Of a DNA stretch of 64,000 bases, positions 2,993 through 19,198 are shown piece by piece. The stretch is taken from NCBI RefSeq assembly GCF_002906575.1, contig NZ_CP026309.1, positions 496,001-560,000 on the forward strand, read 5' to 3'. Within the stretch, counting starts at the first letter, position 1, and every line of letters begins with the position of its first letter. The DNA is from Salinigranum rubrum (GTDB lineage Archaea; Halobacteriota; Halobacteria; Halobacteriales; Haloferacaceae). The notes under the pieces are model-generated. The model did not search any database. It worked only from the letters and a program-made list of their open reading frames with translations, and was not told where the DNA came from. The translations under genes were made by a program, and so were the position numbers.

Positions 2993-3034
2993 GACGTCCG
3001 CTGTTCATCGATCTGTCCGCTGTCTTACTCTGTT

Positions 3035-3316
3035 TCATGTCTCGTCTCTCTCGAAAAACGTCGTCACGCGCCCCAGCAGCTGGAACGACAGGTACGCCGC
3101 GTACACCAGCGCCGCGCCGACGAAGAGCTTCGACGTCAGCGCCGCCGGGATCGACGGGACCGCTCCGCCGATCGAATCGATCACTCCGAGCAGCGGGAAC
3201 CAGATCCCCGCCGTCTGACCGACGAGCGTGAAGATCGGATCGATCATCCCCGCCGTGTACGCAAGCACCGCCCCCAGCGCCGTCAGTGGGTGCGTGACCG
3301 CTTCTTTCCAGTCCAT
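3035..3316 (-). CDS. Small membrane protein (93 aa) of the element
   Basis: The sequence starts MDWKEAVTHPLTALG and contains three hydrophobic stretches, followed by a short charged tail FFERDET. It starts only a few bases after the upstream gene's stop and is followed by a 42-base gap. The function is unknown. It belongs to the same leftward run of membrane proteins. Confidence 0.6.
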   Translation of the reverse strand: MDWKEAVTHPLTALGAVLAYTAGMIDPIFTLVGQTAGIWFPLLGVIDSIGGAVPSIPAALTSKLFVGAALVYAAYLSFQLLGRVTTFFERDET

Positions 3317-3319
3317 CGT

Positions 3320-3760
3320 CTACTCACCTCCAGGAATCACGAACGCCAGCAGCGCCGCCACACGGGGCGATATCGTCTCGACGACGAGCGGCCCCACCTG
3401 CCGGACGATCTCCGCGATCACCAGCACGACGAGCGCCAGCACGACCGGCGCGAACGGTCCCGTCGAGATGATTAGCGACGTCACGACGTCCGCGACAATC
3501 TCGATCATCCCGAGTACGGCGTCACCCGCAGCGCCGAACCCCGAGATCACGATCCCAGCGACGTCAAGCGGGATCCCCGTCACGAGTCCGAAGACCGTCT
3601 GGAGGTTCCCCAGCACGCCCGCCGCGAGATCGAGTACACCACCGACCAGCAGCTCGTACACGATCCCCACGACCCACGTCCTCGGATCCTTCAGGAACGC
3701 GACGATCTGATCCGAGTACGGGAGCGACATGATCCACATCGGCGGATCGAAGTCAGCCAT
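3320..3760 (-). CDS. Membrane protein (146 aa) of the element
   Basis: After a short amphipathic N-terminus (MADFDPPMWIMSLPYSDQ) come three to four hydrophobic segments, with a nearly continuous apolar region from about residue 35 to 145. Its start overlaps the last bases of the upstream 131-residue gene, so the two are likely co-translated. I do not recognise a family. The lack of charged loops suggests a structural membrane component rather than a transporter. Confidence 0.65.
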   Translation of the reverse strand: MADFDPPMWIMSLPYSDQIVAFLKDPRTWVVGIVYELLVGGVLDLAAGVLGNLQTVFGLVTGIPLDVAGIVISGFGAAGDAVLGMIEIVADVVTSLIISTGPFAPVVLALVVLVIAEIVRQVGPLVVETISPRVAALLAFVIPGGE

Positions 3761-4148
3761 ACAACGCCTCCATCAGCACGTACAGCGCGACGAGTCCGAT
3801 CAGAACACCCAACAGCGGGGATCCGACTCCGAAGCCGTACAGGAACGTCAGCGCCGCGTTCCAGGCAGCGTCAGCCGCTTGGATCGGAATCGCAGCGAGT
3901 GATTCGAGCACGTCCGACACGAACCCAGCGACACCGCCGAAGAGCGCGACGTACGCCGCGCTGACCGCGTTCACCAGCGCCGTCGCCCCGAGCGTCGCGA
4001 TCAGAAAGAACCCGCCCGTGATCGTCGTCGCGAGCGCGCCCCATCGAACCGACGTCCCACCGACAAAATCGCCCGCAGAGATCGATCCGCTCCAGCTCGA
4101 CGAGCTTCCCGATCCGCCGCTGAAGGCGCGGGTGTCGTCACCCGGCAT
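3753..4148 (-). CDS. Membrane protein (131 aa) with Ser/Gly-rich N-terminus
   Basis: The first 35 residues are Gly/Ser-rich (SGGSGSSSSWSGS) and probably disordered. Three hydrophobic segments follow at about residues 38-62, 65-80 and 106-128. The gene overlaps the next one by 8 bases. No family was recognised. A small protein with a flexible tail and several helices could be a matrix-like envelope protein, but this is only inference from position. Confidence 0.65.
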   Translation of the reverse strand: MPGDDTRAFSGGSGSSSSWSGSISAGDFVGGTSVRWGALATTITGGFFLIATLGATALVNAVSAAYVALFGGVAGFVSDVLESLAAIPIQAADAAWNAALTFLYGFGVGSPLLGVLIGLVALYVLMEALYG

Positions 4149-4187
4149 GAGTCACCCCCGCTGAAGCCGAGTCCCGACACATCACGA

Positions 4188-4652
4188 TCACTCGTCCTCG
4201 TCCGCGATCCCGCTGTCGTCGTTGTTCGCGATGATATCCGGGAGATCGATCACGAACCCGAGCACGTCGCTGTCGGTGATATCGAGGAAGTACAGTACTT
4301 CCCACAGCACCAGCAGCCCGACGCCGATCCCGAGCGGCGTCTGGAAGATACCCAGGAACTGAAGCCACCCTGTTCCGAACGACGCAGCTCCAGCACCGAA
4401 CGCCGCACCCAGGAACTCCGCGAGTCCCCCGAAGGTAGCGTCGTTGATATCGACGATCAGTCCCGCGATCGCCTGGAACGCAGTGATCGGAATCGAGAGA
4501 ACCGCGTTGAACAGATCGATCCCGCCGAAGATCACCGCCAGCGCCAGCGTTCCGATCGCTGACTGACCGAGTCCGGTCCAGCCCATGTCCTGGATGATCC
4601 CCTGGGTTCGCGAGAGGATCGCGAACGGATCTCTGCCGCTGATTCCAGCCAC
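4188..4652 (-). CDS. Membrane protein (154 aa) of the element
   Basis: The protein starts MAGISGRDPFAILSRTQG, has hydrophobic segments at about residues 33-50, 53-70, 73-95 and 100-125, and ends in a very acidic tail (NNDDSGIADEDE). It begins 6 bases after the corrected stop of the surface-protein gene, which supports an operon in which surface protein and small membrane proteins are made together. The function is unknown. Confidence 0.65.
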   Translation of the reverse strand: MAGISGRDPFAILSRTQGIIQDMGWTGLGQSAIGTLALAVIFGGIDLFNAVLSIPITAFQAIAGLIVDINDATFGGLAEFLGAAFGAGAASFGTGWLQFLGIFQTPLGIGVGLLVLWEVLYFLDITDSDVLGFVIDLPDIIANNDDSGIADEDE

Positions 4653-4658
4653 GCGAGA

Positions 4659-6124
4659 TCAGCTCCCGAGCTTCCGAAGGAATCCGAGCAGAACCACGAC
4701 GATCCCGCCGATGATTGGCAGGTTCGACAGGCCGCCGCTCTTCGCCCCCCGCCACCGAAGCCGCCGGTCGACTCGATCGCGTTGTACTGCTGCTCGTCGA
4801 GCTTCATCCGGAACTTCACGACGTCGTGAGATCCCGTCTGAAGCGTGTCGTCGACGGTGACGTTCGTTCCCTCGCTGGAGTACAGCGACGTCTTGTCCGT
4901 GAACGCCGAGTCTTCGATATCAGCGAAGTCGGTGTCGTCGCTGACACCCTCCGCGTACTCGACAGACAGGATCCGATCCGACGTCACCGACTGCTCGTCC
5001 GTCCGCACCGCGTTCGAGTATGACAGATCGTAGCTGTCCTGAAGACCCATGTCGACGTAGATCGTCGCGATCCCGTGGTAACCGGGGAACTTGTCGGTCT
5101 TCTCCAGCTCGATCATCACGTCGTCGTCGGGAAGGTGCTCGGGAGAACCGACCATGTCGATCTCCAGGTTGTGAAGCTCGGCAGAGTCGAACGCGCTCCC
5201 CAGCGTTTCGAGCGAGTACAGCATCATCGCCCCGCCCGTCTTCTTCTCGGCGTACTCGACAGTCTCCAGATCGTCTTCGTCGCTGTCGGTGTTCTTCTTC
5301 GCGGACCCGAGATCGTACGTCGACATCTTCTCGACGTTCAACCCGGCGATCTCCAGATCAGCGTCCCCGTCGTGAACCGCGATCTCGACAGACTCGATAT
5401 CGTTCCAGGAACCGTCCCCGTTCGTCGAGTCCGTCGCCATGTCCCCGAGCGCCCGCTGGTACACGACTCCGTCGCCCGAAGCGTTCGTCACGAAGTCTTC
5501 GCCCGAGCTGCGGGACGTGTTGATCTCGGCGGTCTTCACGTCGCCGTTCGAGTCGACGACGTTGAACTCGACGACAGTCCCCGCGTCGATCGACTTCACG
5601 TCGAGCGCGACGAACAGGTGTCGCTTCGACTCGTCCGACGTCACCGAGAAGTTCGAGAACGTCGCTGTCGCCGTGTCACCCGACGTCTGACCGCTCGTCG
5701 AGATCTTCACCGCGTCGACACCCGGCGCTGTCTCGACGTCGCTCGTCGAGATCGAACCCGCCGATCCGCTCGCGTCGGTCGTCCACCCGCTCGAATCGAG
5801 CGCGCTGACGTTGTCCTTCGCGTGGGGGAACGCGCTCCAGTCCGTCACGTTCCAGTCCGTCGGGACAGTCGAGAACGGGTTGTCAGCGGACTCGTTCACG
5901 CCCGCCTCGATCGTCTCGATCTCCCCGTCGTTCGCTTCGAACTTCCGCGCGTCTTCCATCGACGCGCCCCAGCTCATGTCGTGAACCGCCTTCGTCACCG
6001 TGTACGAGTTTTCGATGTTCGGCGCGGGATCACTCCCCCACGCGACACCGCCGCCAGCCGCAGCGCCGACGCCGCTCGCGACGACGAGCAGCGCGAGAAG
6101 CGACGCGATCAGTCGCGCCCGCAT
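4659..6124 (-). CDS. Putative surface/spike protein with signal peptide and C-terminal anchor, frameshifted
   Basis: The ATG at 6124 starts an obvious signal peptide (MRARLIASLLALLVVASG). A long acidic, Thr/Ser/Asp-rich ectodomain and a Gly-rich linker follow. The frame then loses its membrane anchor. One extra G in the G6 run (C6 at 4745-4750 on the + strand) restores a frame coding LPIIGGIVVVLLGF, a basic RKLGS end and a stop at 4659-4661. The restored product is about 488 residues. This topology fits spike proteins of haloarchaeal pleomorphic viruses or S-layer-like proteins. I chose 6124 over an ATG 33 bases upstream because the signal peptide begins here and the upstream 39-residue ORF overlaps it. 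The frameshift may be a sequencing error, -1 slippage or a real mutation. Confidence 0.65.
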
Positions 6125-6228
6125 CGTCCCTCCCGAGTCTCGCTGTAGTCTTGCCATCTGATTGCTGTCTGTACCTCAGAACCGCCGTTTGGCTCGTCTG
6201 AGCCCTCTGTTTCCTGTTCGCCAGGCAT
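6109..6228 (-). CDS. Small hydrophilic ORF (39 aa) leading the membrane operon
   Basis: The ATG at 6228 is preceded by a strong Shine-Dalgarno-like GGGAGGAG (6235-6242 on the + strand). The 39-residue product (MPGEQETEGSDEPNGGSEV...) is acidic and then Arg/Tyr-rich, with no membrane segment. It ends 16 bases inside the following surface-protein gene, a typical coupling arrangement. It may be a real small protein or a leader whose translation opens the next start site. No family was recognised. Confidence 0.5.
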   Translation of the reverse strand: MPGEQETEGSDEPNGGSEVQTAIRWQDYSETREGRCGRD

Positions 6229-6402
6229 AGCGATCTCCTCCCGACCCGGATGCGGGTAGGGGGGTTGTCCGGGGAATCCCGGATACGACGGTCGTTCACA
6301 GCCGCCTCGAAGTAGCTGTGGAACGGCTTGGGTCGAAGCGTCCGGGCGTATTGACGGGAGTAATCTTTTTGCACTACGGGGTGGCCAGCACATTCAGCAA
6401 AT

Positions 6403-6618
6403 ATGGCTGAATTGTTGAAACTCAGAAAATTAGGACAGAACTCCGCGGGAGATAACGGCGGAATCAGCCTCCCGAAAGACACGCTTCGCCTCGAGGGACT
6501 GATCGGCGAAGAGGGAGAGTTGGTTCAGCAGCCGTATCTTCGGGTTGAGTACGAAGGAGATGGCGAGTGGCATATCTCACGAATCGACGAACGGCGGTTT
6601 CCCGACCTCACTGACTGA
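6403..6618 (+). CDS. Small AbrB-like/DUF8053-type haloarchaeal protein
   Basis: The 71-residue protein begins MAELLKLRKLGQNSAGDNGG and resembles small haloarchaeal proteins often found beside integrated elements. These have a SpoVT/AbrB-like swapped-hairpin look (a LRKLGQ..ISLPKD strand pattern). A DNA-binding, possibly dimeric antitoxin-like or regulatory role is likely by family, but no partner toxin is adjacent. It is divergent from the membrane operon and shares the AT-richer spacer 6229-6402 with it, so it could regulate that promoter. The family call comes from memory of similar sequences. Confidence 0.6.
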   Translation: MAELLKLRKLGQNSAGDNGGISLPKDTLRLEGLIGEEGELVQQPYLRVEYEGDGEWHISRIDERRFPDLTD

Positions 6619-6678
6619 GATGACTGGTGAATCGTGGAGAGAGCGGACTTTCGGTCTGACCCGGTGGGGTGCGACTCA

Positions 6679-6706
6679 GATGTATGCAGCATCCTCGATG
6701 TATGCA
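6679..6706 (+). repeat. Direct repeat GATGTATGCA x2
   Basis: Two identical 10-base copies occupy 6679-6688 and 6697-6706. Inverted partial copies occur at 6735-6740 and 6851-6857, the last one just before the start of the next gene. The 18-base period places the copies on nearly the same DNA face, as in multi-site operators or iterons. Confidence 0.55.
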
Positions 6707-6766
6707 CCCTCTCGGTTCCAGTCGAGCGGTCGGGTGCATAGAATCGGGGCCAGAGTCCAGGGTGAC

Positions 6767-6782
6767 CGGCACGGCCGTGCCG
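6767..6782. repeat. Perfect 16-base palindrome
   Basis: CGGCACGGCCGTGCCG reads identically on both strands. It has no T-tract after it, so it is more likely a protein-binding or origin-associated site than a terminator. Confidence 0.5.
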
Positions 6783-6867
6783 TGGGTATGGGCCGAGTAT
6801 ATGAAGAATCGACGTTCAGTCAGCTCAGAACGACGCATTCACACCCCCGGTGCATACCTTCATTCAC

Positions 6868-7128
6868 ATGACTAAGCGAACAAGCCTCAAACTCACCGAC
6901 AATCGGCAGCTGCTATTGGATCGTGCGACCGAGATTGTAGCCAACGGACCTGACGACGATCCACCGATGTCGGTTGTGCTCGACGCCGCGCTCACGCACC
7001 TGGTGGAGTCCCATGAGAATCTGGTGGAGGTTCGAGATCGTTACCCGCCGCAGGAGGTGAAGAACTGTTGTAATACGTCCGTTCTCGGGCTTCGGTATCG
7101 GACGAGTATTGAGAGCCGGTGGCGATGA
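6868..7128 (+). CDS. Small RHH-like haloarchaeal plasmid/element protein (DUF7386-like)
   Basis: The 86-residue protein starts MTKRTSLKLTDNRQLLLDRA, and its N-terminal pattern resembles ribbon-helix-helix proteins. Its end, SVLGLRYRTSIESRWR, is a tail I recall from many haloarchaeal plasmid and element proteins. I chose this ATG because the 6 upstream codons add nothing like the family N-terminus. A TGCATAC repeat lies just upstream (6851-6857), consistent with autoregulation. Its exact role is unknown; DNA binding is inferred. Confidence 0.6.
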   Translation: MTKRTSLKLTDNRQLLLDRATEIVANGPDDDPPMSVVLDAALTHLVESHENLVEVRDRYPPQEVKNCCNTSVLGLRYRTSIESRWR

Positions 7129-7208
7129 TTACGACTGATTCAGGTATTCAACCGCTGGTTTCGCAAGTTGCATGACTACACCATCTTATTCAATCGAATG
7201 TGTCTGTG

Positions 7209-8452
7209 TTAACTCCAGGGCATGGAGGATGTCCTTTCAGATTCGGGATTTCCCTTTTTTAATATCAGTATTCGATCGAGTAGTTCTTCACCATCTTCAC
7301 TTTCTTTAGTAACCTCGTAACGGAGGTCATTAAACCGAGAGTAAGAGCGTTTATCTATATTATAAGCGTCATCAATTACACGCTCAAGCTCGAAGCCACG
7401 CTTTTCTGCTTCTGCGGCGATCATGAACGACGGGTACACGATTTGTGACCCTTCAGACCGATGTCTTCGAACGTCACCAATCACGATAATGGCCCAGCTG
7501 TCATCTGATAGCACGTGGTCTACTTCATTAAGCGTATCTTGTATAAATGACCGATAATTATCAAGTGCGGAGGTGAGATTCATATCATCACGTTCGGCTT
7601 TTCTATCCGCATCCAGCCACCAGAGACGCAACCAGTTATTCCAAGAGTAATCAAGCATATGCATGTAGGGTGGGGATGTAAGAAGCAGGTCCGCCTCACC
7701 TTCTGCAAATGGGAGATCTGTTGAGTCCCCTTGTTCTACCTTCACTTTCTGCTTTGGATACCGAGAACTATCTAATGTATTGAACTTAGTGTTCCATGAT
7801 TTTTCGATGTTCCTATATTCTGGATGTATATCGTTTTTATCAATATATTTGCGGACATAGTTTGCACTTCCAGAGAATGTGTCCTTTGTCTGGAGAGATA
7901 AGAACATCTCAGAAGGACCATGGAGAACACCACAGGTTAAAGCATTAAGAAAATTAGCCTCGGTACCTCCACGTTTTTTTAGAATCTCTCGCACAGGTAA
8001 TATCTCTTGAAGCGTTTTTTTGTGAAAGAAAAGAGCCACATCGTCATCAACATCTTGAATATCGATTTGGGTTAAAGCCTCGGCTTCAGTGAGCACATCG
8101 TCAACAGCAACTTCAAACTCTTCCTCGGATAGTGGATTACACTTGGCTGCTGTGAGGGTCTTTGCGTAAACAAAAGAGTCGCTAGCTAATGCTCGGCGAT
8201 TCATCAAACTCGCTTCAAGCGGCGTTGTGCCCCCCCACAGAAGGGATCAAGAACGGTGTCGCCGGGCTCAGAGTATCGATCAATAAAATAGTGTGCTAAT
8301 GCAGGTGGGAATCCTCCAACATACGGTGCGAGTTTATGAAGTGGGTTTCCCCATGTCCGAGGGGCTTCTCTCCAGGTTCCTGGTAAACTCTCTGTATCGA
8401 TTGACTCGAAATCACCTACCGCTTCACGGTCAGCAGCGTAATTCTGGGTCAT
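7209..8452 (-). CDS. DNA methyltransferase (N4-cytosine/N6-adenine type), frameshifted in motif I
   Basis: Two overlapping frames together make one SAM-dependent DNA methylase. The first (8452 back to about 8204) ends VLDPFCGGAQRR. The second carries the catalytic motif TSPPY and a typical C-terminus. Adding one G to the G7 tract (C7 at 8230-8236 on the + strand) gives VLDPFCGGGTTPLEA, the classic SAM-binding motif I, joined in frame to MNRRALASD. The corrected enzyme is about 414 residues. An ATG at 8509 is also open, but the TATA box at 8512-8518 would place transcription downstream of it. The gene is divergent from the HerA operon and has the same lower-GC composition, so a modification partner of that module is likely. 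As written, the protein is inactive. Confidence 0.75.
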
Positions 8453-8511
8453 GTTCTTATCCAGTCGCGATGGATTGAAAAGGATACCGTAGAGGTAGTT
8501 CCAACACAATA

Positions 8512-8518
8512 CTTTAAG
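8512..8518 (+). promoter_or_regulatory. TATA box, CTTTAAG, between methyltransferase and HerA operon
   Basis: The near-palindromic CTTTAAG lies 25 bases upstream of the HerA ATG at 8543, the spacing expected for a leaderless archaeal transcript. Being nearly symmetric, it may also drive the methyltransferase leftward, which would coordinate the two genes. Confidence 0.5.
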
Positions 8519-8542
8519 TTGGGTGATTTACTTGACTCCGGT

Positions 8543-10684
8543 ATGACAGGCGTCCCCGCAAGTTTAATCTCGCTGGAAAATATGTCCGTTGAAAATCTTC
8601 TTGCGGATGGATTAAAAGTGGGTGGTGTCTTCTCGACTGGCTACGATGAGTGTGACGTTCTAACCAACGATTGGTGGACACAAGAAGCAGGCGGGCTGCC
8701 TAAACATTCATTACTAGTTGCTAAGCCGCTGTTGGAAGGGAGTAGGCTAGTTGATGATGACGAAGTGCACACTGGGCACCGACTTCCCTCGAAATCTACC
8801 GATTCTGAAGACGAGTCTCGGTCGAGTAACGAAGCTTCTCATGCACTCTTACTACGTGTGAAAGGCCCTGCGGACCTTCCTGATGAGGGACGGTTGACCT
8901 CGAACCGTCATGATGCTATTCGTCAAGCGATTACCGCAGAAAAAGATGGAGAGCCGACAGACGATGATTTCGTAGATGTACTAACTCGCCGTGAACTGCA
9001 GTATTCCGGTATCAGAGCGAACGTTCTAGGTACATTCTACTACACGGAGAACGAGGACGGGAATCGAGAACTAACGTTTGGTAGTGACGTTCAGACCTTT
9101 TTTTCAGCGGGACATTATGTAGTTCACAAGCCTGCTCCAGAAGCACTGGCTTGGATTGCTAGCTATCCGACTTCGGATAGCGACTCCCCGATAAAACTGG
9201 GCGAAGTCAAATACACCAGTACTCGGATTTATGATGACAGGACGCCCTCTCCGGTCTATATTGATATAGAGGATTTCATTGGATCAAAGACAGCAGTCTT
9301 TGGGATGACTCGAAAGGGGAAGTCTAACACGATGAAAATCCTTGCGGCGGCGATCGCAGCCGGAGAGGCATCCGTTGGACAACTTGTTTTCGACCCAAGT
9401 GGCGAGTACGCGTACGAGAATGACCAAGACGAGTGTGCACTTGGTGAATTGTACGACGGTGGTGTGTCGATATCTACCGTTTATAAGTTCAATCCTGCTG
9501 AAGGAGAAGACGATTACAAACCCCTTCGAAGCAATCTTTTAGACCGAAACAATCAGCAGATTGTACAGTCCTACGTGAGGAGTCTTCTGGTGGGTGAGAC
9601 TGCAGACTATGTTGGCAAGTTCCTTAGTACAAAAATACCAACCGAAAACGAGATTGACGATCTCGAAGGGGGGGAGAGAAATCGAGCCAAGTGGCTGCAG
9701 AGTGCGTACTACGCTGTTCTGTCCAAAGCGATCGGCGAAGATCGTCTCCCAGATAACTTCGAGCCTTTCTGGATCAAGGTCAATGATAATATCATCTCTC
9801 TAGTTAATGAGGCTGCGGATCTTGAGCATACAAAAATCAAAGGGAGTCTTCCACTGGGAAAATGGAACGGGGAGAACCAGATTGTTGACTTTTGGGAGGC
9901 TGTCGAAAAACGCCAAGACGATATAAACAAGGCATATAGAGATGAAGGAAATAATAAAGATTGGGTAGACGACGACTTAGCCAATGTGTTGGAGATGTTC
10001 AATACAGATGGCTCACAGTCTGGTTATGGCAAACTGACTGAACTTAGGCACTTCCATAATCCGGACTCAGAAGAAGATGTTGCTGCAGAGATATACGAGA
10101 AACTTGATCAGGGGGAGATGGTCGTCGTTGACATCTCCAACGGCCGTGAAGATCTTGTGGAAAGGGAGACGACTAGAATTGTCAATCACGTACGGTCTAA
10201 ATCGCGTGAACGATTTAGAAGCACTGAAAAAGAAGACCGAACACTTCCAGAAATTCAGATATATCTTGAAGAAGCCCACCGCCACTTCGAGAAGGAAGAA
10301 TATCGCGACGGTGAGTCAATGAGCCCGTACGTTGAGCTTGCGAAAGAGGGTGCAAAGTTCAATATTGGTATGACTTACGCAACTCAAGAAGTCTCCAGTA
10401 TTGATCGACGAGTGCTCTCAAATACATCCAACTGGATTGTGACCCATCTCAACAGCGATCGGGAAATCAAACGACTTGCAGAATATTATAACTTTGAAGA
10501 TTTCAAATCATCGCTGAAAAATGTAGAAGAAAAAGGGTTTGTTCGGCTCAAGACCTCCTCTGGTGAGTATATTGTCCCATTGCAGGTTGACTTATTTGAC
10601 CGTGAGTGGATCACAACAAACACAGCTTACAGCATTCAAAAGAGAGAGGAAGGTGATGACGATGTGGAGTCCGGGAGCGAATAA
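8543..10684 (+). CDS. HerA-like hexameric DNA translocase ATPase
   Basis: The protein (about 713 residues) has the HerA/FtsK-superfamily layout. A variable N-terminal barrel-like region comes first. A Walker A variant GMTRKGKSNT lies at about 254-263. A Walker B IYLEEAH lies at about 573-579. The C-terminal half includes SSIDRRVLSNTSNWIVTHL, typical of HerA. HerA ring motors pump DNA and load the NurA nuclease. Here NurA follows with a TAATG overlap, while Mre11-Rad50 is absent. The ATG at 8543 fits a leaderless start behind the TATA box; a TTG 24 bases upstream is unlikely. Lower-GC codon use than the flanking chromosome points to transfer. Confidence 0.85.
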   Translation: MTGVPASLISLENMSVENLLADGLKVGGVFSTGYDECDVLTNDWWTQEAGGLPKHSLLVAKPLLEGSRLVDDDEVHTGHRLPSKSTDSEDESRSSNEASHALLLRVKGPADLPDEGRLTSNRHDAIRQAITAEKDGEPTDDDFVDVLTRRELQYSGIRANVLGTFYYTENEDGNRELTFGSDVQTFFSAGHYVVHKPAPEALAWIASYPTSDSDSPIKLGEVKYTSTRIYDDRTPSPVYIDIEDFIGSKTAVFGMTRKGKSNTMKILAAAIAAGEASVGQLVFDPSGEYAYENDQDECALGELYDGGVSISTVYKFNPAEGEDDYKPLRSNLLDRNNQQIVQSYVRSLLVGETADYVGKFLSTKIPTENEIDDLEGGERNRAKWLQSAYYAVLSKAIGEDRLPDNFEPFWIKVNDNIISLVNEAADLEHTKIKGSLPLGKWNGENQIVDFWEAVEKRQDDINKAYRDEGNNKDWVDDDLANVLEMFNTDGSQSGYGKLTELRHFHNPDSEEDVAAEIYEKLDQGEMVVVDISNGREDLVERETTRIVNHVRSKSRERFRSTEKEDRTLPEIQIYLEEAHRHFEKEEYRDGESMSPYVELAKEGAKFNIGMTYATQEVSSIDRRVLSNTSNWIVTHLNSDREIKRLAEYYNFEDFKSSLKNVEEKGFVRLKTSSGEYIVPLQVDLFDREWITTNTAYSIQKREEGDDDVESGSE

Positions 10685-12057
10685 TGGCATACGATGATGA
10701 ACCACCTAACAGTATTGGGCAGGTTGACGTAGCGAAGGACTCAGATATAGCTCAGCAACTAAGCGAACTTAGGTTTAATCCCCCATCAGACGAAGAACTG
10801 TTATCTTGGGAAACACTTTCAATGGGGAATCTTCCAGGGGCATCTGATTTAGGCCCTCCGTTTGAGACGGTTTTCAGTGTAGATGGTTCTCGTGTTGAGG
10901 TCCTTGTTGGTGACAGAAGACGGAACAAGCGAGTCGGATTCATCAATATTGCTCTGAGCGAGTTAGACATGACTGCTCTACAGGGACAAGAAAAACGCGC
11001 CTATGTGAACCCTGTAGAGGTAGAACATCTAGGAAAGAATCGCCATATCCGGATGGTACTTCCGAGCAGTAATACGCTATTTGAGTGTGGAACGACTCAC
11101 GAAAGTTGGAGGCGAATGACCTATCGAAACTTCCGCCAGACCGCTCTACTTGGTCAATCATTGTTCGATATGTACTACACACTTTTGGAGCGTTCCGGTC
11201 GTCTCAGTAGGAACAACCGACTTAGATTAGAAATCTGTCCGGCTCAAGATTGCACCCATGAGCAGTTGTTCGTCAATTCAACACGTCCAGATAGCTGTCC
11301 TGAATGTGGCACGGTTACATACCCTACGGATGCTCTTCGCGTGCACGAACGCGTTACTGGTTCGCAGTCGAATGTTGCCGCGCTCAATGTCCTCATGGGA
11401 ATCATTGAACACATGGTACTTCTTCGGGCTTGTCAGTACCTCTATGAGACTGAACCTGAGCGCCTCGAGACAACCGCATTCATCAAAGACGGTCCTCTAG
11501 CCCAGTTCGACACCGCTGCTTGGATTCACGAACCCATTCTTCACGTCATCAATGATGTTCAAACGTTTCTGTCACAGGCTGAAAGAGCACCTCTCGTATA
11601 TGCTGGAATCCACAAAACAGGAGAGTTCGTCGCATTCGGACAAGGGATACGCGATGATCTTGGTGGACCTTGCGTGCTTCCCTTCAATAATGAGTCAATA
11701 TACGAATACGTGATGCCGGGGGATAGAAGCAAGGACTACGGATACAAGACGTACTACGGCAAGAATTTTCTCTTCAAATCAGCAAAGGGGACTGATAGTG
11801 GGCACTGCATCCCGTTCCTGATACCCCGCCGATATGAGGCCGGTGTCAAAAATGGAGACATTGTTCAGAACCCTGAAGCATATCCCGAGTTAGCTCGAAC
11901 AGTAACGATAATCGAACAGTTAAGAACAATCCAGTACCCTGACGCACTTATTCCGCTCGTCTTAGCACATAGTGCAGCGTCTCTGCCCGAAGATCTCAGT
12001 CGCAAAGTCTTAGGTAAACTAACTGAACTGGTGGCCGGAGAGAGCGAGGAAGAGTAA
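10684..12057 (+). CDS. NurA-domain nuclease with zinc-knuckle insert
   Basis: The 457-residue protein shows NurA motifs: FSVDGSR near residues 65-70 (metal-binding Asp67), IKDGPL in the middle, and HCIPFLIPRR near the C-terminus. It carries a cysteine cluster at about C185, C190, C205 and C208 that could bind zinc and is unusual for housekeeping NurA. NurA is a 5'-3' resection nuclease that works with HerA. The start overlaps the HerA stop (TAATG), so the pair is translated together. The gene shares the low-GC composition of the module. Confidence 0.75.
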   Translation: MAYDDEPPNSIGQVDVAKDSDIAQQLSELRFNPPSDEELLSWETLSMGNLPGASDLGPPFETVFSVDGSRVEVLVGDRRRNKRVGFINIALSELDMTALQGQEKRAYVNPVEVEHLGKNRHIRMVLPSSNTLFECGTTHESWRRMTYRNFRQTALLGQSLFDMYYTLLERSGRLSRNNRLRLEICPAQDCTHEQLFVNSTRPDSCPECGTVTYPTDALRVHERVTGSQSNVAALNVLMGIIEHMVLLRACQYLYETEPERLETTAFIKDGPLAQFDTAAWIHEPILHVINDVQTFLSQAERAPLVYAGIHKTGEFVAFGQGIRDDLGGPCVLPFNNESIYEYVMPGDRSKDYGYKTYYGKNFLFKSAKGTDSGHCIPFLIPRRYEAGVKNGDIVQNPEAYPELARTVTIIEQLRTIQYPDALIPLVLAHSAASLPEDLSRKVLGKLTELVAGESEEE

Positions 12058-12114
12058 TAGTTACAATGTATGAGCGTTTACAAATGAATAGGAGTAGTCC
12101 ATTGAGGATTGACT

Positions 12115-13254
12115 ATGTCTGAAGAACAGCGCCTACTTCAGCGCATTGATGAGGCGCTTGAGGACGCTGTAAAGTCACTCAATCTAAATTGGAGTAAGGC
12201 AACACGTATCAAGCGACAAAAGTACACTGAGCAGGCTATAGAGCACTTTTCATCTGACGACGATACCTACGAAGCACCAGTTACTCGGAGTTGGTTCAAA
12301 TACGGGGGAACACAATCTCAAGCACCATCTGGTTCGGACCGCCTTGACTTTCCCGAGCCCGAAACACCTGAATCACTCTCTGGTCCGACTCTCGATGATT
12401 ATGATGATGGTGAAGAAGCTCACCCAGAAACAAAACCTGATCGATCAGAAGTATCTAGTCAAGGATCTCCACGAAAGGACCCGATCTTTGAAGTCTCCGA
12501 AAATGACTTCATGATGTTCTTTATTGACCGAGCAGATGCACCTCCACTAGACCGGGTACACTGGGAAATGAAGGACTTGGAGTTCTTGAAAGAGTATTAC
12601 GAAGAGAATGCTCCTCCGGGACTGAAAGAACTTTATCTTGCAAATGTAGAACTACGGCAAGTTCTCCGAGATGCTCGAGATGATCTCAAAGAGATACATG
12701 AAAACAGAGCGACGCTCTATACTGAGGGACATCACGCTGTACCGAACCTAAAAGAAAAACAGTACTATGAGCGGGCTGGTCAAGCAGCTGTTCAGCTTCG
12801 ACTCGCCATGCGTAAACACGAGGAACTCTTTGACGCCTCAATTGGTCCAGTGTCGGAGTGTACTGATTTGATCGAAAATGTACTGATGCAACTACAGATG
12901 CTTCCTCCGACGGAAATAGTGCCTCCACATTCACGCATCGTACAAGAACTGAGCGACTTCTATGACTCTACTGTATGGCTACTTCCTGCTTATGAAATGT
13001 CCGAGCATACCGCAGAAGGGCCGCACAAAGAGGTTTTAAAACAAATTGCCGATGCTAATTACAACACGATTCTCAGCGGGCGCAATGACGATGACCCCGG
13101 TAAGTTTGAGGAAGAGATTGATCAAATTCGACGAGAATGTGCATCGTACAATTTGCTCCCACGACCTAGTGACTTCCCATCAGAAAGTCATGAGAACTCT
13201 CAAGATATAGATGAAATGATGAATATCATCGACTCCCCTGACACTGATGAGTGA
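12115..13254 (+). CDS. Uncharacterised protein of the HerA-NurA module
   Basis: The 379-residue, acidic, apparently soluble protein has a helical N-terminal 40 residues, a Pro/Ser/Asp-rich linker (about 60-125) and a long helical C-terminal domain with coiled-coil potential (about 135-270). I recognise no catalytic motif or family. It lies 57 bases after NurA and overlaps the following PIN gene (ATGAGTGA), so it is part of the operon. It may be a sensor, adaptor or regulator of the nucleases, but that is inference. I chose the ATG at 12115 over the in-frame TTG two codons earlier. Confidence 0.7.
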   Translation: MSEEQRLLQRIDEALEDAVKSLNLNWSKATRIKRQKYTEQAIEHFSSDDDTYEAPVTRSWFKYGGTQSQAPSGSDRLDFPEPETPESLSGPTLDDYDDGEEAHPETKPDRSEVSSQGSPRKDPIFEVSENDFMMFFIDRADAPPLDRVHWEMKDLEFLKEYYEENAPPGLKELYLANVELRQVLRDARDDLKEIHENRATLYTEGHHAVPNLKEKQYYERAGQAAVQLRLAMRKHEELFDASIGPVSECTDLIENVLMQLQMLPPTEIVPPHSRIVQELSDFYDSTVWLLPAYEMSEHTAEGPHKEVLKQIADANYNTILSGRNDDDPGKFEEEIDQIRRECASYNLLPRPSDFPSESHENSQDIDEMMNIIDSPDTDE

Positions 13255-14014
13255 AGCAGCATCACCGATAAACGTGAGTGCGACCTTCACGGACACTTCT
13301 GTACTCTACGATTATTCGAAAGATGAAACAGAAGAGGCAGCGATTTTCTTTGACGAGTACACTAACCTCAAGAAATACACAAGTGATTTTGGATATCGTG
13401 AATACAAGCGAGTCGCTCAGCGGAGAGCAAAAGCATATGCTGCATGGGAAGAAAGTGTTTCTGACGGAAACAGTTCTATCGGTGACTACCAGTTCGATAC
13501 TCCCTCAAATCTCACCTCTAACGACAGAAGATCGTTGAATGACTTTCAAAGACAACTTGTTCAAGAACATGGTGATATCGAGGCTCTCCGGCTAGTTCGT
13601 GAGCGTTTACGCCAGTACGAGAGCGGGGTCGACCGGTTGTTTGGAAACGCTAACAGTGAGCCACTGGTTGAGAGACTGAATATTAACTATGACGTTAACC
13701 TCTACCGAGCACTTCAGATGGATATTAGTAACACATCTGATTGCAAGTTGCTTGCACAAGCCGCGAAATGGTATGCAACTGGGGGCGATGACGCTTTTGT
13801 AACTTCTGACAAAAATGATTTCGGGGACGAGGCTGAACCTACTGACGAGGATACTACCTCAACTGGTGGCCTTCCAGCTACTCTTGAAGAATTAACATCT
13901 GATCCGATATCGTTACAACAGAATATCAACCAGCACGTCAGTAGGGAATACTCAAATATTAATGGGCTATCTATTTATCAATTGAATAACTTTGTCGAGA
14001 GATACTCTCCGTAA
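13247..14014 (+). CDS. PIN-like nuclease domain protein of the HerA-NurA module
   Basis: Near the N-terminus ATFTDTSVLYDYSKD matches the first PIN motif (DTSVL). DAFVTSDKNDF in the last third matches the distal PIN motif (T-S/D-D near the metal site). The middle is helical and includes many acidic residues. PIN domains are metal-dependent RNases or DNases. Its ATG overlaps the stop of the unknown gene, making it the last gene of the operon. The PIN assignment rests on these two motifs only; a fold prediction would settle it. Confidence 0.6.
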   Translation: MSEAASPINVSATFTDTSVLYDYSKDETEEAAIFFDEYTNLKKYTSDFGYREYKRVAQRRAKAYAAWEESVSDGNSSIGDYQFDTPSNLTSNDRRSLNDFQRQLVQEHGDIEALRLVRERLRQYESGVDRLFGNANSEPLVERLNINYDVNLYRALQMDISNTSDCKLLAQAAKWYATGGDDAFVTSDKNDFGDEAEPTDEDTTSTGGLPATLEELTSDPISLQQNINQHVSREYSNINGLSIYQLNNFVERYSP

Positions 14015-14117
14015 TCAGTAGGGTACTCACTTCTACCCGTATTTACTTAAAGTCATAAAATCCAGATTGGATTGGTCGCGAGCAGAGCCACAACCTCAAT
14101 ACAAATCTATTGAGTTC

Positions 14118-14456
14118 CTATATTCCAAAGCCCACCCACCAACCCGGCCTCACCTTATCGGGTGGCCGCGTTCCCGGCGTTGGCCTGTCGAGATTGGCGT
14201 CAACCTCTCCTTCTAAATACAGCATTCCCCACACCGAGATCTCGAACATCTCCACGCCGGGTTCGTCGAGGAACGGCTCAATCAGCCCAGCTTCACACAA
14301 TACCCGACACCGCTCGTGAATCCGAGCCTCCGAGCCACCCACACGAAGATCCCGAGCCATCTGTGACGGCCACGAGAGACCCTCCCGAGCGAGCTTCTCA
14401 AGAATTCGGTCGTCGAGCAGTTGCATCCACTGGCCTGTCCGTCGTATCTTTCCCAT
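14118..14456 (-). CDS. phiH1-repressor-like winged-helix regulator
   Basis: The 112-residue protein begins with MGKIRRTGQWMQLLDDRILE and has a winged-helix DNA-binding domain (about residues 10-85). This is the pattern of the haloarchaeal phiH1 repressor-like family common on proviruses. A Pro/Gly/Arg-rich tail follows. It sits only 5 bases after the second winged-helix gene, so the two are probably one operon controlling element genes such as the integrase. Confidence 0.75.
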   Translation of the reverse strand: MGKIRRTGQWMQLLDDRILEKLAREGLSWPSQMARDLRVGGSEARIHERCRVLCEAGLIEPFLDEPGVEMFEISVWGMLYLEGEVDANLDRPTPGTRPPDKVRPGWWVGFGI

Positions 14457-14461
14457 CTATA

Positions 14462-14749
14462 TTACGCTGAAGCAGCCCCGTTTTCTTCTTCCGTGTCGGA
14501 CAACTCTTCTGCGTTCAAATCACCTGTGAGATATTCCTCGCCGGTTGGGGTAATGACGTAGACTCCGTTTCCAAGGTGCTGTAGCATTCCTTTCTCTTTC
14601 AGCCGCCTTAGGCGTCGAGAAATTTGGGATCGAGATATCTGAAAGAACCCTGACTTTTCCAATTCACCTGGGCTCCCTGACCCGTTCTCCTCGATAAATT
14701 CGAGGATTCGGTCATCCCAAATCGTCATCCAGGACCCGGATCTCCTCAT
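14462..14749 (-). CDS. phiH1-repressor-like winged-helix regulator
   Basis: The 95-residue protein (SWMTIWDDRILEFIEENG...) has the same winged-helix domain as its neighbour and an acidic tail ending EEENGAASA. Two copies in tandem suggest a dedicated repressor pair for lysogeny-like or excision control. The spacer upstream (14750-14963) contains ATGCA-type half sites (near 14755-14770 and 14803-14810) and separates it from the divergent zinc-ribbon/integrase operon. Confidence 0.75.
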   Translation of the reverse strand: MRRSGSWMTIWDDRILEFIEENGSGSPGELEKSGFFQISRSQISRRLRRLKEKGMLQHLGNGVYVITPTGEEYLTGDLNAEELSDTEEENGAASA

Positions 14750-14913
14750 CGTTATTGCATCTGTGCATCACCATCTCCTATTTGTACTGGTTGTTGTGTC
14801 CATGCACCATTCACAACTTATTTAGCTTGACCACAGCATTTATGCAAAGACAGTGTATCGGTGTGATTACGGGACCGAGTGAGATACCGTCGGCTACTGT
14901 TGATATCGTAGGT

Positions 14914-14946
14914 CCCGCGGGCGTCGCTGGTACCGACGTCCGCGGG
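14914..14946. repeat. Long inverted repeat upstream of the integrase operon
   Basis: Arms CCCGCGGGCGTCG (14914-14926) and CGACGTCCGCGGG (14934-14946) pair over 13 positions with a single T/C difference and a 7-base loop. A GGTCCCGC repeat occurs at 14911-14918 and 14948-14955. The site lies just before the zinc-ribbon gene and could be an operator, a recombination-accessory site or an RNA hairpin. Confidence 0.5.
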
Positions 14947-14963
14947 TGGTCCCGCCCAGAACG

Positions 14964-15383
14964 ATGAGCGAAACTACTAGCACGGGGCTTGGGCCCCGCA
15001 CAGAGTCGGACGTAGCGCTCTCTCAAAAGAACCCCGGACCAGCCTCTTGTGAAGCCTGTAGTGACCGCAACGCCGTCGGCTTCAACGCACAAACACGAAA
15101 GCACGTCTGTCGACAATGCGCGCGACTCCGCGCGGACGGTGGGCTCGACTTCGAAGGACTCGCCGCCCTCGAACGGCAGGCAGACGCGCTAGAGCGACTC
15201 ACTGACGAGATGGAGCACCAGAACGCGGTGCTCGCTGAACTCGCGCACGCGGTACACCAGGTGGCCGTGAACGCCGACGAGCACGCACACCCAGACGAGA
15301 AACGTAGTCGCGTTCCGTCGTACCGTGGGCTCCACGGTCGAATCGACGATCAGCGGTTCACTCGCGAAGAGGGCTACAGATGA
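14964..15383 (+). CDS. Zinc-ribbon protein coupled to the integrase
   Basis: The 139-residue protein has a C29-x2-C32...C49-x2-C52 zinc ribbon followed by a coiled-coil segment (about 62-105). Its stop overlaps the integrase ATG (ATGA), so it is made together with the recombinase. SNJ2-type pleolipovirus integrases are known to be accompanied by small helper genes; a similar accessory role here is plausible. I chose ATG 14964 over one 18 bases upstream. Confidence 0.65.
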   Translation: MSETTSTGLGPRTESDVALSQKNPGPASCEACSDRNAVGFNAQTRKHVCRQCARLRADGGLDFEGLAALERQADALERLTDEMEHQNAVLAELAHAVHQVAVNADEHAHPDEKRSRVPSYRGLHGRIDDQRFTREEGYR

Positions 15384-16423
15384 GCGGCGATCTCGTTCCA
15401 CTGGCACCCGCAGAGGGACGTCGGATGTATCTTGACGCGAAGCAGGACGAGCTAGCTGCCGAGACGATCGAGGGCCAGAGCTACCGACTCGCTGCGTTCG
15501 TCGCGTGGTGTGAGGAAAACGAAATAGAGAATCTTGGTGAACTCCGTGGACGGGATCTCTACGCGTATCGAATCTGGCGACGCGAAGGAAATTACGCGGC
15601 AGATGAAGACGAAGACCCGGAGCCCCTAGCGCCTTCGACGCTGAGAGGGCAGTTGGCCACGCTTCGGGCATTCCTCCGATTTTGCGCGACTATCGACGCG
15701 GTTCCGGCTGGACTCGCTGATGACGTTCCACTCCCGACCGTTTCAGATGGTGACGACGTGAGTGACTCGACGCTCCATCCAGCACGTGCCGAACCGATTC
15801 TGGACTACCTGGGTCGGTATCACTACGCGAGTCGTCGACATGCGGAAATCCTATTGGCGTGGCACACCGGGTGTCGCATCTCGGGGCTTCGCGCGCTCGA
15901 TCTCCGTGACCTCTCCCTCGAGGGTGAGACACCGACTATCGAGTTCGTCCACCGACCGGACACCGGGACGTCGCTGAAGAACGGGACTAGTGGCGAGCGC
16001 GTGAACGTGATTTCTCGACGTATGGCGTCGGTCTTGTCCGATTGGATCGATGGGCCGAGACCTCGAGTAAAAGACGAGTACGACCGTCACCCGCTCTTCA
16101 CGACCAAACACGGCCGTGTCCACAAGGGCACTCTTCGCACCGACGCGTACGTGGTCACTCGCCCGTGCTGGTACGGCGAGGAGTGCCCACACGACCGCGA
16201 CCCCGAGACGTGTGAGGCGACGACTGTCCGAAAGGCGAGTGAGTGTCCGTCGAGTCGATCTCCCCACGATTTCCGGTCGGGTCGTGTGACGGCCTATCGG
16301 AGCGACAACGTTCCCCGCCGCGTCGTTGGTGACCGTCTCGACGCGAGTGAGGACGTCTTGGACAAGCATTACGACCGGAGAAACGCTCGACAGAGAGCTA
16401 TTCAGCGCCAGCAGTTCCTATGA
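15380..16423 (+). CDS. Tyrosine recombinase/integrase of the element
   Basis: The 347-residue protein has an N-terminal SAM-like core-binding domain (about 15-110) and the catalytic domain. Catalytic residues visible are R166 (TGCRISGL), probable K200, H296 and R299 (SPHDFR), and the nucleophile Y331 (KHYDRR). A cysteine-rich insert (C263, C269, C278, C289) resembles zinc-binding inserts in other haloarchaeal integrases. It would integrate or excise the element; SNJ2-type relatives use tRNA genes, but no tRNA is visible here. It is the last large gene before chromosomal genes, so the right attachment site is probably nearby. Confidence 0.85.
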   Translation: MSGDLVPLAPAEGRRMYLDAKQDELAAETIEGQSYRLAAFVAWCEENEIENLGELRGRDLYAYRIWRREGNYAADEDEDPEPLAPSTLRGQLATLRAFLRFCATIDAVPAGLADDVPLPTVSDGDDVSDSTLHPARAEPILDYLGRYHYASRRHAEILLAWHTGCRISGLRALDLRDLSLEGETPTIEFVHRPDTGTSLKNGTSGERVNVISRRMASVLSDWIDGPRPRVKDEYDRHPLFTTKHGRVHKGTLRTDAYVVTRPCWYGEECPHDRDPETCEATTVRKASECPSSRSPHDFRSGRVTAYRSDNVPRRVVGDRLDASEDVLDKHYDRRNARQRAIQRQQFL

Positions 16424-16512
16424 CACCGATGACGGACTACCGTACGGAGAGAGAATCGTATCGGCCTGTCCCCATAGGGCCCATGATTCCTGCGAACGTC
16501 AGCGAGCGGTGA
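16420..16512 (+). CDS. Tiny ORF (30 aa) overlapping the integrase stop
   Basis: An ATG at 16420 overlaps the integrase stop (ATGA) and encodes MTPMTDYRTERESYRPVPIG... before a TGA. The same frame stays open after that TGA to about 16692 and reads like coding sequence (for example SIQPEAERAKADDTKTLAHE). The unit may therefore be a roughly 90-codon gene with an in-frame stop. It could be a third small gene of the integrase operon or a decayed remnant. Confidence 0.35.
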   Translation: MTPMTDYRTERESYRPVPIGPMIPANVSER

Positions 16513-16821
16513 AATCTGTACCGCGGCGCGGTTCGAAGGTCCATACAGCCGGAAGCGGAACGGGCAAAGGCCGACGACACCAAGACCCTCGCGCATGAGC
16601 GGCGTTCCCGCGGGAGTGCTGACCGCTTCGGCGACGACTGCGACCTCGCTGACCACGACTGCCGGCGGTTCTCGGGCAGTCGCCCCGTTCGGTGACTCCC
16701 CGCCCCGGACCTCGCCTCGCACGTTCGTGAGGCGAGTCGCCAGTCCCCTCTCGACGGACCGAGCGGAACGCTCGATGACGAGACCGGCCGTGTCGCCGTC
16801 GACGGGGACGCCAGCCAACGC
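16513..16821. other. Element/chromosome junction region, no intact gene
   Basis: The stretch keeps long open frames because of high GC, with a coding-like continuation of the preceding small ORF up to a TGA near 16690. No intact gene, tRNA or clear attachment repeat is visible. The right end of the element probably lies between here and 16822. Confidence 0.4.
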
Positions 16822-17364
16822 ATGAACACGAAAACACTCGTCCTCGGAGCCGTAGCGCTCGTGCTCGTCGGATGCGTCGGTCTCCTCCTGGGCGGGTTCG
16901 GCCCGGCACCTGCCGCCGACAGCGACGACACCGGGTCGTTCCCGACGGAGACGCCGGACCGAACGCCCAGCGGCGAGCAGGGCGGATCAGCGTCGGACGC
17001 GACGGCCACGGCGACACCGCTGCCACCGTTCGCCTTCACCGTCGACGGGACCGAAGAGTGCGGCCGCACCTGTCGCGACGTGACGTCGACGGTGACGAAC
17101 CAGCAGGAGACGACCGCCGAGGACGTCACCGTCTACACGCGTGTCTACGCCGGCAGAGGAACCGATGGGGGCGTGATCTGGGAGGGGCGAGAGCGCGTCG
17201 GGACGCTCGACGCCGGTGCGTCCTACACCGCGACCAGGCGCGTCGAACTCTCCTTCACCGACGCCATCGCGATCCAGCAGAACGGCGGGTGGGTGACGGT
17301 CCAGACGACCGTCCGGACCGCCGACCGGACGCTGACGCTCACCGACCAACGACAGGTGGGCTGA
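16822..17364 (+). CDS. Exported membrane-anchored/lipoprotein-like protein
   Basis: The 180-residue protein has an N-terminal hydrophobic segment (residues 4-26) with LVGC resembling a lipobox. A Thr/Ser/Asp-rich linker (about 33-66) follows, then a compact beta-rich domain with two cysteines (C78, C82). The domain pattern resembles small haloarchaeal FxLYD/CARDB-type extracellular domains. It is the first gene with chromosomal composition after the element. The exact function is unknown. Confidence 0.65.
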   Translation: MNTKTLVLGAVALVLVGCVGLLLGGFGPAPAADSDDTGSFPTETPDRTPSGEQGGSASDATATATPLPPFAFTVDGTEECGRTCRDVTSTVTNQQETTAEDVTVYTRVYAGRGTDGGVIWEGRERVGTLDAGASYTATRRVELSFTDAIAIQQNGGWVTVQTTVRTADRTLTLTDQRQVG

Positions 17365-17665
17365 TTCCCCCCGTGACAGCGGTACGCAGTTCGTTCGAGA
17401 CGGCGAGGACGCCCCCGCCAAGCGGCGGACCGCGTAGCGTCTCCTCCGTGGATGGGACGGCCCACTACTCGACGACGCTCGGGCCGCCCTGGTGCTCCGA
17501 ATCGCGCTTCCCGTCGTCGGCCCCGGAACCCGCCGCTGGACGTCCCGACGAGTCCGGTTGCGAGCGCCATCGCGCCGGTCGCCACCAGGTCGCGTCTGCT
17601 CGGGTGCCTCGGTTCGAAGCCGGTCTAACAATTAACGAGTCCACCGGTGTTTCGGTGGCCTACAC
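17365..17665. other. Intergenic region between convergent genes
   Basis: No gene can be supported. The leftward frame around 17500-17585 reads VATGAMALATGLVGTS and then becomes Arg-rich, so it could be a degraded membrane-protein fragment. A hairpin near 17641 probably ends the leftward operon. Confidence 0.4.
17641..17658 (-). terminator. Possible hairpin terminator of the first iron operon
   Basis: CCACCG and CGGTGG form a 6-bp stem with a 6-base loop, 8 bases after the stop of the leftward small gene. In the leftward direction an AT-rich stretch (TTAATTGTT) follows. Confidence 0.35.
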
Positions 17666-17932
17666 TCAGCGACGTACTCGCACCGGCGACTCGGCGCTGA
17701 TGAACGGTTCGGTCCCCTCGCTTTCGGCGAAGGCCACCCCGGTGTCCGTCCGGCGCACCGTCCACTCGGGGACCGTTGGGATGCCGTACTCCTCGGGGTC
17801 GTGATAGAGCGAGGCGATGGCCCACCTCCGAGCCCCCATCCGGGACGCCGTGTCGCGCTTCGAGCGACGATTCGACCGCGTCGGTTGCTCTCGACCGCCG
17901 CGCGTTCGGGATGTGGGGTCCTCGTCGCGCAT
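17666..17932 (-). CDS. Small haloarchaeal protein, unknown function, in iron operon
   Basis: The 88-residue protein starts two bases after the stop of the binding-protein gene and so is probably coupled to it. After an Arg-rich N-terminus comes the convincing stretch MGARRWAIASLYHDPEEYG and an end GTEPFISAESPVRVRR, in a style I recall from conserved haloarchaeal small proteins. A role linked to iron uptake or its control is suggested only by operon position. Confidence 0.5.
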   Translation of the reverse strand: MRDEDPTSRTRGGREQPTRSNRRSKRDTASRMGARRWAIASLYHDPEEYGIPTVPEWTVRRTDTGVAFAESEGTEPFISAESPVRVRR

Positions 17933-17934
17933 CG

Positions 17935-19158: not shown

Positions 19159-19162
19159 ACGA

Positions 19163-19178
19163 TTTAGGCTCGCCTAAA
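19163..19178. promoter_or_regulatory. Iron box (DtxR/IdeR-type operator), proximal, copy 1 promoter
   Basis: TTTAGGCTCGCCTAAA is an imperfect palindrome matching the haloarchaeal DtxR-family operator pattern (TTAGG...CCTAA). It lies between the TATA and ATG 19158, so iron-loaded repressor would block transcription start. Confidence 0.75.
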
Positions 19179-19198
19179 CCGTTATAGCTGCTTCGAAT

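Follow-up and report, generated by a model that had tools for sequence, protein, structure and literature searches.

Positions 7209-14014 of the stretch analysed here (the window: 64,000 nucleotides of Salinigranum rubrum DNA, NCBI RefSeq assembly GCF_002906575.1, contig NZ_CP026309.1, positions 496,001 to 560,000 of the forward strand) hold a DNA methylase gene divergent from an operon encoding a HerA-like DNA pump, a NurA-like nuclease and two further proteins, here called g3 and g4. Judged from sequence comparison, the unit that recurs is the methylase with HerA and NurA, found in bacteria, archaea, plasmids and a phage record; the set of all five genes is narrower, occurring in haloarchaea, and g3-g4 is a module in its own right. 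We infer, with moderate confidence, that the operon is a putative restriction-modification-like defence system, in which methylation serves as the mark of self. An earlier, sequence-only reading of this DNA had proposed a defence system of five genes with HerA feeding foreign DNA to two nucleases, and we revise that proposal below. The genes and motifs concerned are as follows.

7209-8509, minus strand: methylase gene, both frames, divergent from the HerA operon
8204-8509, minus strand: methylase 5' part, a frame of 101 amino acids (aa) with motif I (DPFCGG); Pfam N6_N4_Mtase, E 6.7e-7
7209-8207, minus strand: methylase 3' part, a 332-aa frame with TSPPY, in a different reading frame from the 5' part
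8230-8236, minus strand: run of seven Gs on the coding strand, in motif I; site of the frame break
8519-10684, plus strand: HerA gene, a HerA-like DNA translocase with Walker A GMTRKGKSN and EEAH
10684-12057, plus strand: NurA/TdpB-like nuclease gene, with a four-cysteine insert
11236-11307, plus strand: CPx3-4C...CPxC cluster (C185, C190, C205, C208), from alignments of NurA-like members
12109-13254, plus strand: g3, a predicted helical protein of no known family, leading the g3-g4 module
13247-14014, plus strand: g4, a predicted PIN-domain nuclease, second in the g3-g4 module, overlapping g3 by 8 bases

In the list of open reading frames (ORFs), HerA, the NurA-like gene, g3 and g4 run in the same direction and are nearly in contact, so that the tightly coupled four-gene operon described earlier is indeed present.

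The methylase-HerA-NurA core

The HerA protein, already recognised as such in the earlier reading, matches the HerA central domain of Pfam (DUF87, E 2.4e-15) and the HerA models of PADLOC (best 3.5e-17), and scores 61 bits against NCBIfam HerA_antiphage, for which the cut-off is 800; its conserved part begins at about residue 22 (about 8582). Its nearest solved relative is TdpA, at E 4.7e-32 with an 18-sequence profile (the next relative at 6.1e-19) and at E 1.6e-15 with the window's HerA as single query. Taken singly, the window's NurA-like protein does not match Pfam NurA at E<=1, and its sole listed Pfam match (Zn_Tnp_IS91, E 0.11) lies across the cysteine cluster; Pfam NurA matches 17 of 48 members of its family at E<=0.01. 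An AlphaFold2 model of the protein, made with 53 sequences (mean predicted local distance difference test score, pLDDT, 89.7; predicted template modelling score 0.90), finds as its top fold TdpB in TdpAB (Foldseek E 3.1e-10; Z 20.9; root-mean-square deviation 4.4; 319 residues aligned), followed by the NurA proteins of S. solfataricus (Z 15.3), T. kodakarensis (13.3), PDB entry 3taz (13.0) and D. radiodurans (12.5).

Model and alignment together give this family a NurA fold with conserved acidic residues, D67 (in DGS), E242 and D269 (in KDGP) being invariant in all 48 members. The added cysteine cluster noted previously is also conserved: C185, C190, C205 and C208 are invariant in 12 aligned members, and across the 48 C205 is invariant and C185 nearly so; the cluster probably binds zinc. 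Since another gene with a Pfam NurA match lies elsewhere in the host assembly (4.97 Mb, 6 contigs), at C1:3369731, the window's gene is not the host's repair copy, in line with the earlier view that this is no housekeeping pair. In a control comparison, the 19 kb around that second gene drew no match from 78 methylase and 40 NurA queries.

All five genes occur together in five other haloarchaeal genomes (loci L014-L018), as the earlier reading had suggested checking, while a sixth genome (L019) and the Halorarius halobius plasmid in L009 carry HerA, NurA and the methylase, with no g3-g4 match in the stretches fetched. Depending on the genome, the methylase is divergent, upstream and co-directional, or downstream, so the linkage is kept though gene order varies. 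Beyond this group, a scan of one genome per species supplied the best 80 of 131 NurA relatives, such that the counts describe the nearest ones; with 11 plasmid, phage and haloarchaeal loci and the window itself these make up 92 loci, in which NurA is recognised in 91 and HerA in 88. L043, whose NurA frame was missed by the simple ORF caller, stands outside the counts, and removal of duplicates (L020, L022, L092) leaves 88 non-redundant NurA loci. A methylase of one of three clusters (MTa, MTb or MTd) is present in 72 of these and missing from 16, which takes the link between methylase and HerA-NurA well beyond the haloarchaea. Of 74 methylase genes (the window's two pieces counted as two), 69 are separated from the HerA-NurA block by less than 300 bp; 60 of the 69 are co-directional with it and 50 are both upstream and co-directional, often with an overlap of a few bases. 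Among 26 methylases sampled (16 MTa, 5 MTb, 5 MTd), Pfam N6_N4_Mtase is found in 21 and a D12-class methylase in 6.

The pair is carried by prophage-like Vibrio records, cyanobacterial plasmids and a Deferribacter plasmid, and a methylase is present in the two examined Vibrio and Deferribacter records. In viral_contigs, a HerA profile finds six loci, with NurA beside HerA in all six and a D12 methylase immediately upstream in four; the NurA profile and an initial g3 profile, run on the same collection, returned pattern matches and no relatives. In the Deferribacter megaplasmid, a TnpB gene and an IS200/IS605 tnpA sit between two parts of HerA (L011:7530-9309). Downstream of NurA, six Bacteroidota loci (L069, L071, L073, L075, L076, L086) have additional genes that recur among them, one encoding an AbiEii-like AAA domain; these represent another accessory set on the same core, and L076 has an HNH endonuclease gene there as well. 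The five-gene set of the earlier reading recurs, but it is the three-gene core that does so as a unit, g3-g4 being a module of its own.

The methylase families are kept along stretches of the NurA tree, yet have been replaced repeatedly. On this tree (86 rows, after L009, L013, L020 and NurA rows shorter than 400 aa were dropped) five labels (MTa, MTb, MTd, none, and MTa with g3-g4) need 16 changes, against a minimum of 4 and a shuffled mean of 48.9, with some of the 'none' labels reflecting contig ends only, several rows long-branched, and the labels of L024 and L029 resting on methylase genes 1.1 and 2.7 kb away. The well-supported branches require no fewer than 7 changes for MTd (the D12 type), 5 for MTa and 4 for MTb; the variety with g3-g4 forms one clade (100/100) on a long stem. 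Exchange among three families would be expected if any sequence-marking methylase were to suffice, and it suggests that what HerA-NurA, or its access to DNA, responds to is modification at methylase-defined sites and not one chemistry.

Methylation as a proposed self mark

We propose a model in which the methylase would mark host DNA (as N4-methylcytosine, m4C, or N6-methyladenine, m6A), and the TdpA-like HerA would form a ring around double-stranded DNA (dsDNA), pump along it and deliver it to the NurA/TdpB-like nuclease, which would degrade DNA that is unmarked. Methylated sites would stall or inhibit the HerA pump, by analogy with TdpAB, which is said to be mark-regulated, phosphorothioates stalling or inhibiting its pump; TdpC is reportedly the partner gene that marks the DNA by phosphorothioation.

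TdpABC (PDB 8wet, 8wfd, 8y1k) shares with the present core a HerA-like ATPase and a NurA-like nuclease, TdpA and TdpB being the best solved relatives; the window's HerA is TdpA-like, and its NurA-like protein TdpB-like by fold. The two differ in that the present core has a methylase of three families as partner and no phosphorothioation gene (no sulfur-transfer family is among the Pfam matches of the operon's methylase, g3 and PIN protein, for which no TdpC model was searched), in that the window's NurA is about 100 residues longer (457 versus 358) with its cysteine cluster, and in that six haloarchaeal loci add g3-g4. On this comparison the present set, having no phosphorothioation gene, falls outside TdpABC, yet it probably works in a similar way. 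PADLOC, with which 48 NurA members, the g3 homologues and the window's own g4 were scanned, gave no match for the window's NurA, g3 or g4, and weak, single matches in just 2 of the 48 NurA-like members, so that the earlier failure to place the set stands in that sense; the set is nonetheless less isolated than first thought, because in TdpABC a HerA-NurA pair already works with a different DNA mark.

Several points weigh against this proposal. The link from the NurA-like protein to TdpB is one of fold, as the NurA sequence profile returned matches at chance level from PDB sequences, with TdpB the last of them at E 0.94. No specificity subunit was recognised in the set, and how the restriction half would know the sites of the methylase is the weakest step. 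Eight of the 16 loci without a methylase have HerA or NurA within 300 bp of a contig end, where the upstream gene is not visible; the eight not cut in this way lack a methylase of the three families, and four of them are cyanobacterial loci in which a helix-turn-helix gene accompanies HerA and NurA (L010, L013, L042, L044). Repair-type roles of HerA-NurA are possible, and, finally, the window's methylase is frameshifted, such that, were the break real, a strictly lethal restriction half would turn against its own cell.

Some of these same observations would be accommodated were HerA-NurA to degrade DNA from its ends, as RecBCD does, without sensing any mark, and were the methylase an independent or regulatory neighbour that shields the element from other restriction systems. 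The available part of one report has the HerA-NurA of T. kodakarensis cleaving both strands of linear dsDNA, for which its authors propose a role against viral DNA (PMC12977600), a role that also favours the defence reading. The four cyanobacterial loci have HerA and NurA but none of the three methylase families, and in the window HerA and NurA are open despite the broken methylase. We nevertheless regard end-dependent degradation as unlikely: an unrelated neighbour would not be expected to stay so closely linked across many phyla, through three methylase families that replace one another, and the nearest relatives are TdpA and TdpB, for which regulation by a mark is reported.

The methylase itself requires some comment. 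It had been described as a DNA amino-methyltransferase divergent from the operon; it is divergent, and has the motifs of a methylase, but it is not one open gene, the frame being broken at the seven Gs. Its 3' part matches Pfam N6_N4_Mtase at E 3.8e-5 (under the curated cut-off) and PADLOC MTase_II at 1.5e-13, and the TSPPY motif predicts an enzyme of m4C or m6A type; its 5' part resembles the N-terminal portion of the single methylase gene of its relatives, and this homology suggests a start at an ATG near 8452. In seven haloarchaeal relatives (L009, L014-L019) the methylase is one open gene across the break point, reading DPF[SA]GGGT, and the run of seven Gs is absent from all of them. Because the rest of the window's frame has no further stop, the break is either recent or a sequencing error; with the frame broken, the marking half in this strain may be inactive or lost, or the sequence may be wrong at this point. 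A phase-variable methylase, switching at the G run, was also weighed; the seven relatives have no such run at this site, so there is no conserved switch. Other runs of seven G or C bases in the window are at 9668 (within HerA, where the frame is intact), 24659 and 53095.

Were the frameshift real, the operon might be in decay, its marking half lost and its other genes persisting as restriction is weak, silent or conditional. The frame break within motif I of the methylase fits this. That said, the four other genes have open frames and keep the order seen in relatives, and the remaining methylase frame, free of stops, points instead to a recent event or an error; decay is in our judgement rather unlikely here, and it would in any case be compatible with restriction-modification-like defence for the family as a whole.

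The g3-g4 module

Of the two remaining proteins, g3 (381 aa) had been called an unrecognised helical protein. No family emerges from 37 homologues scanned, which gave isolated weak matches in single members in Pfam and PADLOC, and a match of the family to RHH_3 is insignificant (E 0.075); its helicity is the prediction of a low-confidence model (mean pLDDT 57.2), with which a fold search found nothing at E<=0.001, as expected at a mean pLDDT of 57. The PIN-like assignment of g4 holds at the level of the family: the window's own protein has no Pfam family at E<=1, and PF01850 (PIN) matches 12 of 33 homologues at E<=0.1 (best 1.4e-5), with other PIN models matching some. E52 is invariant in the family, and D16, D165 and D188 are nearly so. 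A search of PDB with the g4 profile speaks against PIN, as it places a designed helical repeat first (E 0.001) and VapC26 second (E 0.016). Taken as a family, g4 is on this evidence a predicted PIN nuclease, and PIN domains are mostly RNases. Set beside VapBC, in which a small DNA-binding antitoxin inhibits a PIN toxin, the module pairs the predicted PIN protein g4 with a g3 of 381 aa that has the insignificant RHH_3 match.

Within the class, the g3 profile matches 62 of 391 genomes and the g4 profile 36 of 391; a search with the NurA protein, made as a single sequence in another draw of the class and less sensitive than these profiles, finds 7 of 292 genomes (7 of 78 genera, the window's own genome included). 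By these searches g3-g4 is commoner in the class than the methylase-HerA-NurA core, and is found mostly without it. We sampled 40 neighbourhoods without the core (L166-L205) from the 56 genomes that have a g3 match once the six with the full set are excluded. In 35 of them g4 directly follows g3, at gaps of -125 to +18 bases (-4 in 12 of the 35 pairs and -8 in 5). Neighbours were identified by running PADLOC on one representative of each of nine clusters, two of which gave no match: a cluster of DrmB or DrmC (DISARM) is near g3-g4 in 8 of the 40 loci and DrmA in 7, a DpdJ-like helicase cluster in 9, a type IIG-like restriction-methylase in 4 and an Argonaute in 3, with no partner recognised in the remaining loci of the 40. 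Two genes near some of the loci with the DpdJ-like helicase we take, by eye, to resemble queD and queE.

These comparisons point to g3-g4 as a separate two-gene module. As it is tightly paired and in contact with several modification systems, it likely shares a function with them, though the clustering of defence genes in islands could alone give adjacency. DISARM, Dpd and type IIG systems in haloarchaea resemble the present set in being modification-based, and some of their loci have g3-g4 adjacent or nearby; their core enzymes (DrmA/B/C, the DpdJ-like helicase, and a fused restriction endonuclease and methyltransferase) are unrelated to those of the present core. The earlier idea that HerA feeds DNA to two nucleases becomes unlikely, since g3-g4 is a separate module mostly found without the core and PIN proteins mostly cut RNA.

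We suggest that g3-g4 was added to the core as a separate module in six haloarchaea, and that g3, as regulator or sensor, would restrain or direct g4, which is probably an RNase. The pair would then form a second line (growth arrest or transcript cleavage) if the first line is blocked. More tentatively, and with rather more doubt than belief, we speculate that HerA-NurA is a general, mark-agnostic restriction engine with a plug-in marker (methylases of m4C or m6A type here, phosphorothioation in Tdp) and that g3-g4 is at the same time a haloarchaeal guard module, in which g3 would sense failure or inhibition of marking and release the PIN nuclease. If so, HerA-NurA would read modified versus unmodified DNA and not one chemistry, and g3-g4 would guard methylation, DISARM, Dpd-like and type IIG-like defences alike. 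To our knowledge, one mark-sensing HerA-NurA system is known, which uses phosphorothioates; on the restriction-modification-like reading, the principle would reach ordinary DNA methylation in many bacterial and archaeal phyla. What the pump senses could be probed directly by means of the exchangeable methylases, and the g3-g4 pair would offer a new handle on a possible archaeal back-up of modification-based immunity.

Related systems and the carrying element

Housekeeping HerA-NurA pairs, which sit with Mre11-Rad50, share the HerA pump and the NurA fold; the present operon differs in its methylase partner, its mobile location and the presence of a second NurA in the host. Among the operon genes and four other ORFs at 4532-17129, which are the ORFs scanned there, none has a Pfam match to Mre11 or Rad50, and apart from HerA no ORF in window 1-20000 exceeds 572 aa. 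The core could help to account for HerA-NurA pairs outside repair loci. The anti-phage complexes HerA-SIR2 and HerA-DUF4297 likewise combine a HerA ATPase with an effector; here the effector is NurA-like, with a methylase in addition, and the operon's proteins have no Pfam match to SIR2 or DUF4297 at E<=1. Compared with type II restriction-modification, a methylase is present, in frameshifted form, and the nuclease is NurA-like. In the HerA/FtsK capture systems and BRC a HerA pump has been proposed to bring invader DNA to a nuclease; as far as the available parts of those papers go, HerA is combined there with Orc/CDC6, restriction endonuclease or PglZ parts, and the word NurA is absent from the main texts (PMC10853773, PMC12839542).

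Neither a methylase-HerA-NurA system nor g3-g4 is described in the accessible portions of four further papers (PMC10910872, PMC10855626, PMC7251087, PMC11291478), and our literature search found no account of either, with subscription papers thinly covered and an earlier description possible. On this weak basis for novelty, what is possibly new is the methylase-linked HerA-NurA relative to the known TdpABC principle, together with g3-g4 as an accessory module.

Two features bear on the mobile element in which the sequence-only reading had put the operon.

7129-14124: low-GC cargo segment, 46% GC; other genes stand there in an element of the same genus
15380-16423, plus strand: tyrosine integrase of the carrying element; PHROG integrase, 2.5e-21

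The lower-GC island is plain (46.0% GC at 7129-14124 versus 63.4% at 1-7000 and 67.4% at 14125-64000), and in L017, too, an integrase homologue is found within a few kb of the operon. In a second genome of the same genus (G349), homologues of window 6655-7128 (85%) and 14125-15516 (78%) bracket a different cargo of three low-GC genes (L210:7456-10424), which occupy the position of the operon, and an ORF similar at the DNA level to the window's integrase follows at the matching place. Because the same flanks enclose other genes there, the operon looks like a swappable cargo of an integrative element.

Such a setting raises the question of whether the operon instead serves the mobile element in repair or replication, through end processing or recombination, and not in defence. 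HerA-NurA is an end-processing pair in many archaea, and plasmids, phage records and an integrase-bearing element all carry the set. The element needs no such operon, however, since the same flanks in G349 hold other low-GC genes; the methylase link, the host's own NurA and the occurrence of g3-g4 beside defence systems elsewhere argue in the same direction, and we consider this explanation very unlikely in comparison with a restriction-modification-like defence.

The three proteins of the G349 cargo, one of 431 aa with helix-hairpin-helix motifs and two of 325 aa and 232 aa with no Pfam match, are possibly another uncharacterised defence set. Between cargo and integrase, window 14118-14749 holds two tandem regulator-like genes, one with a PHROG transcriptional regulator match (1.7e-32), that are present in the G349 element too. 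Beside the island, on the minus strand at 582-6157, is a series of genes that look membrane-like by eye; six of them have no PHROG match, and they may belong to the carrying element or to a provirus.

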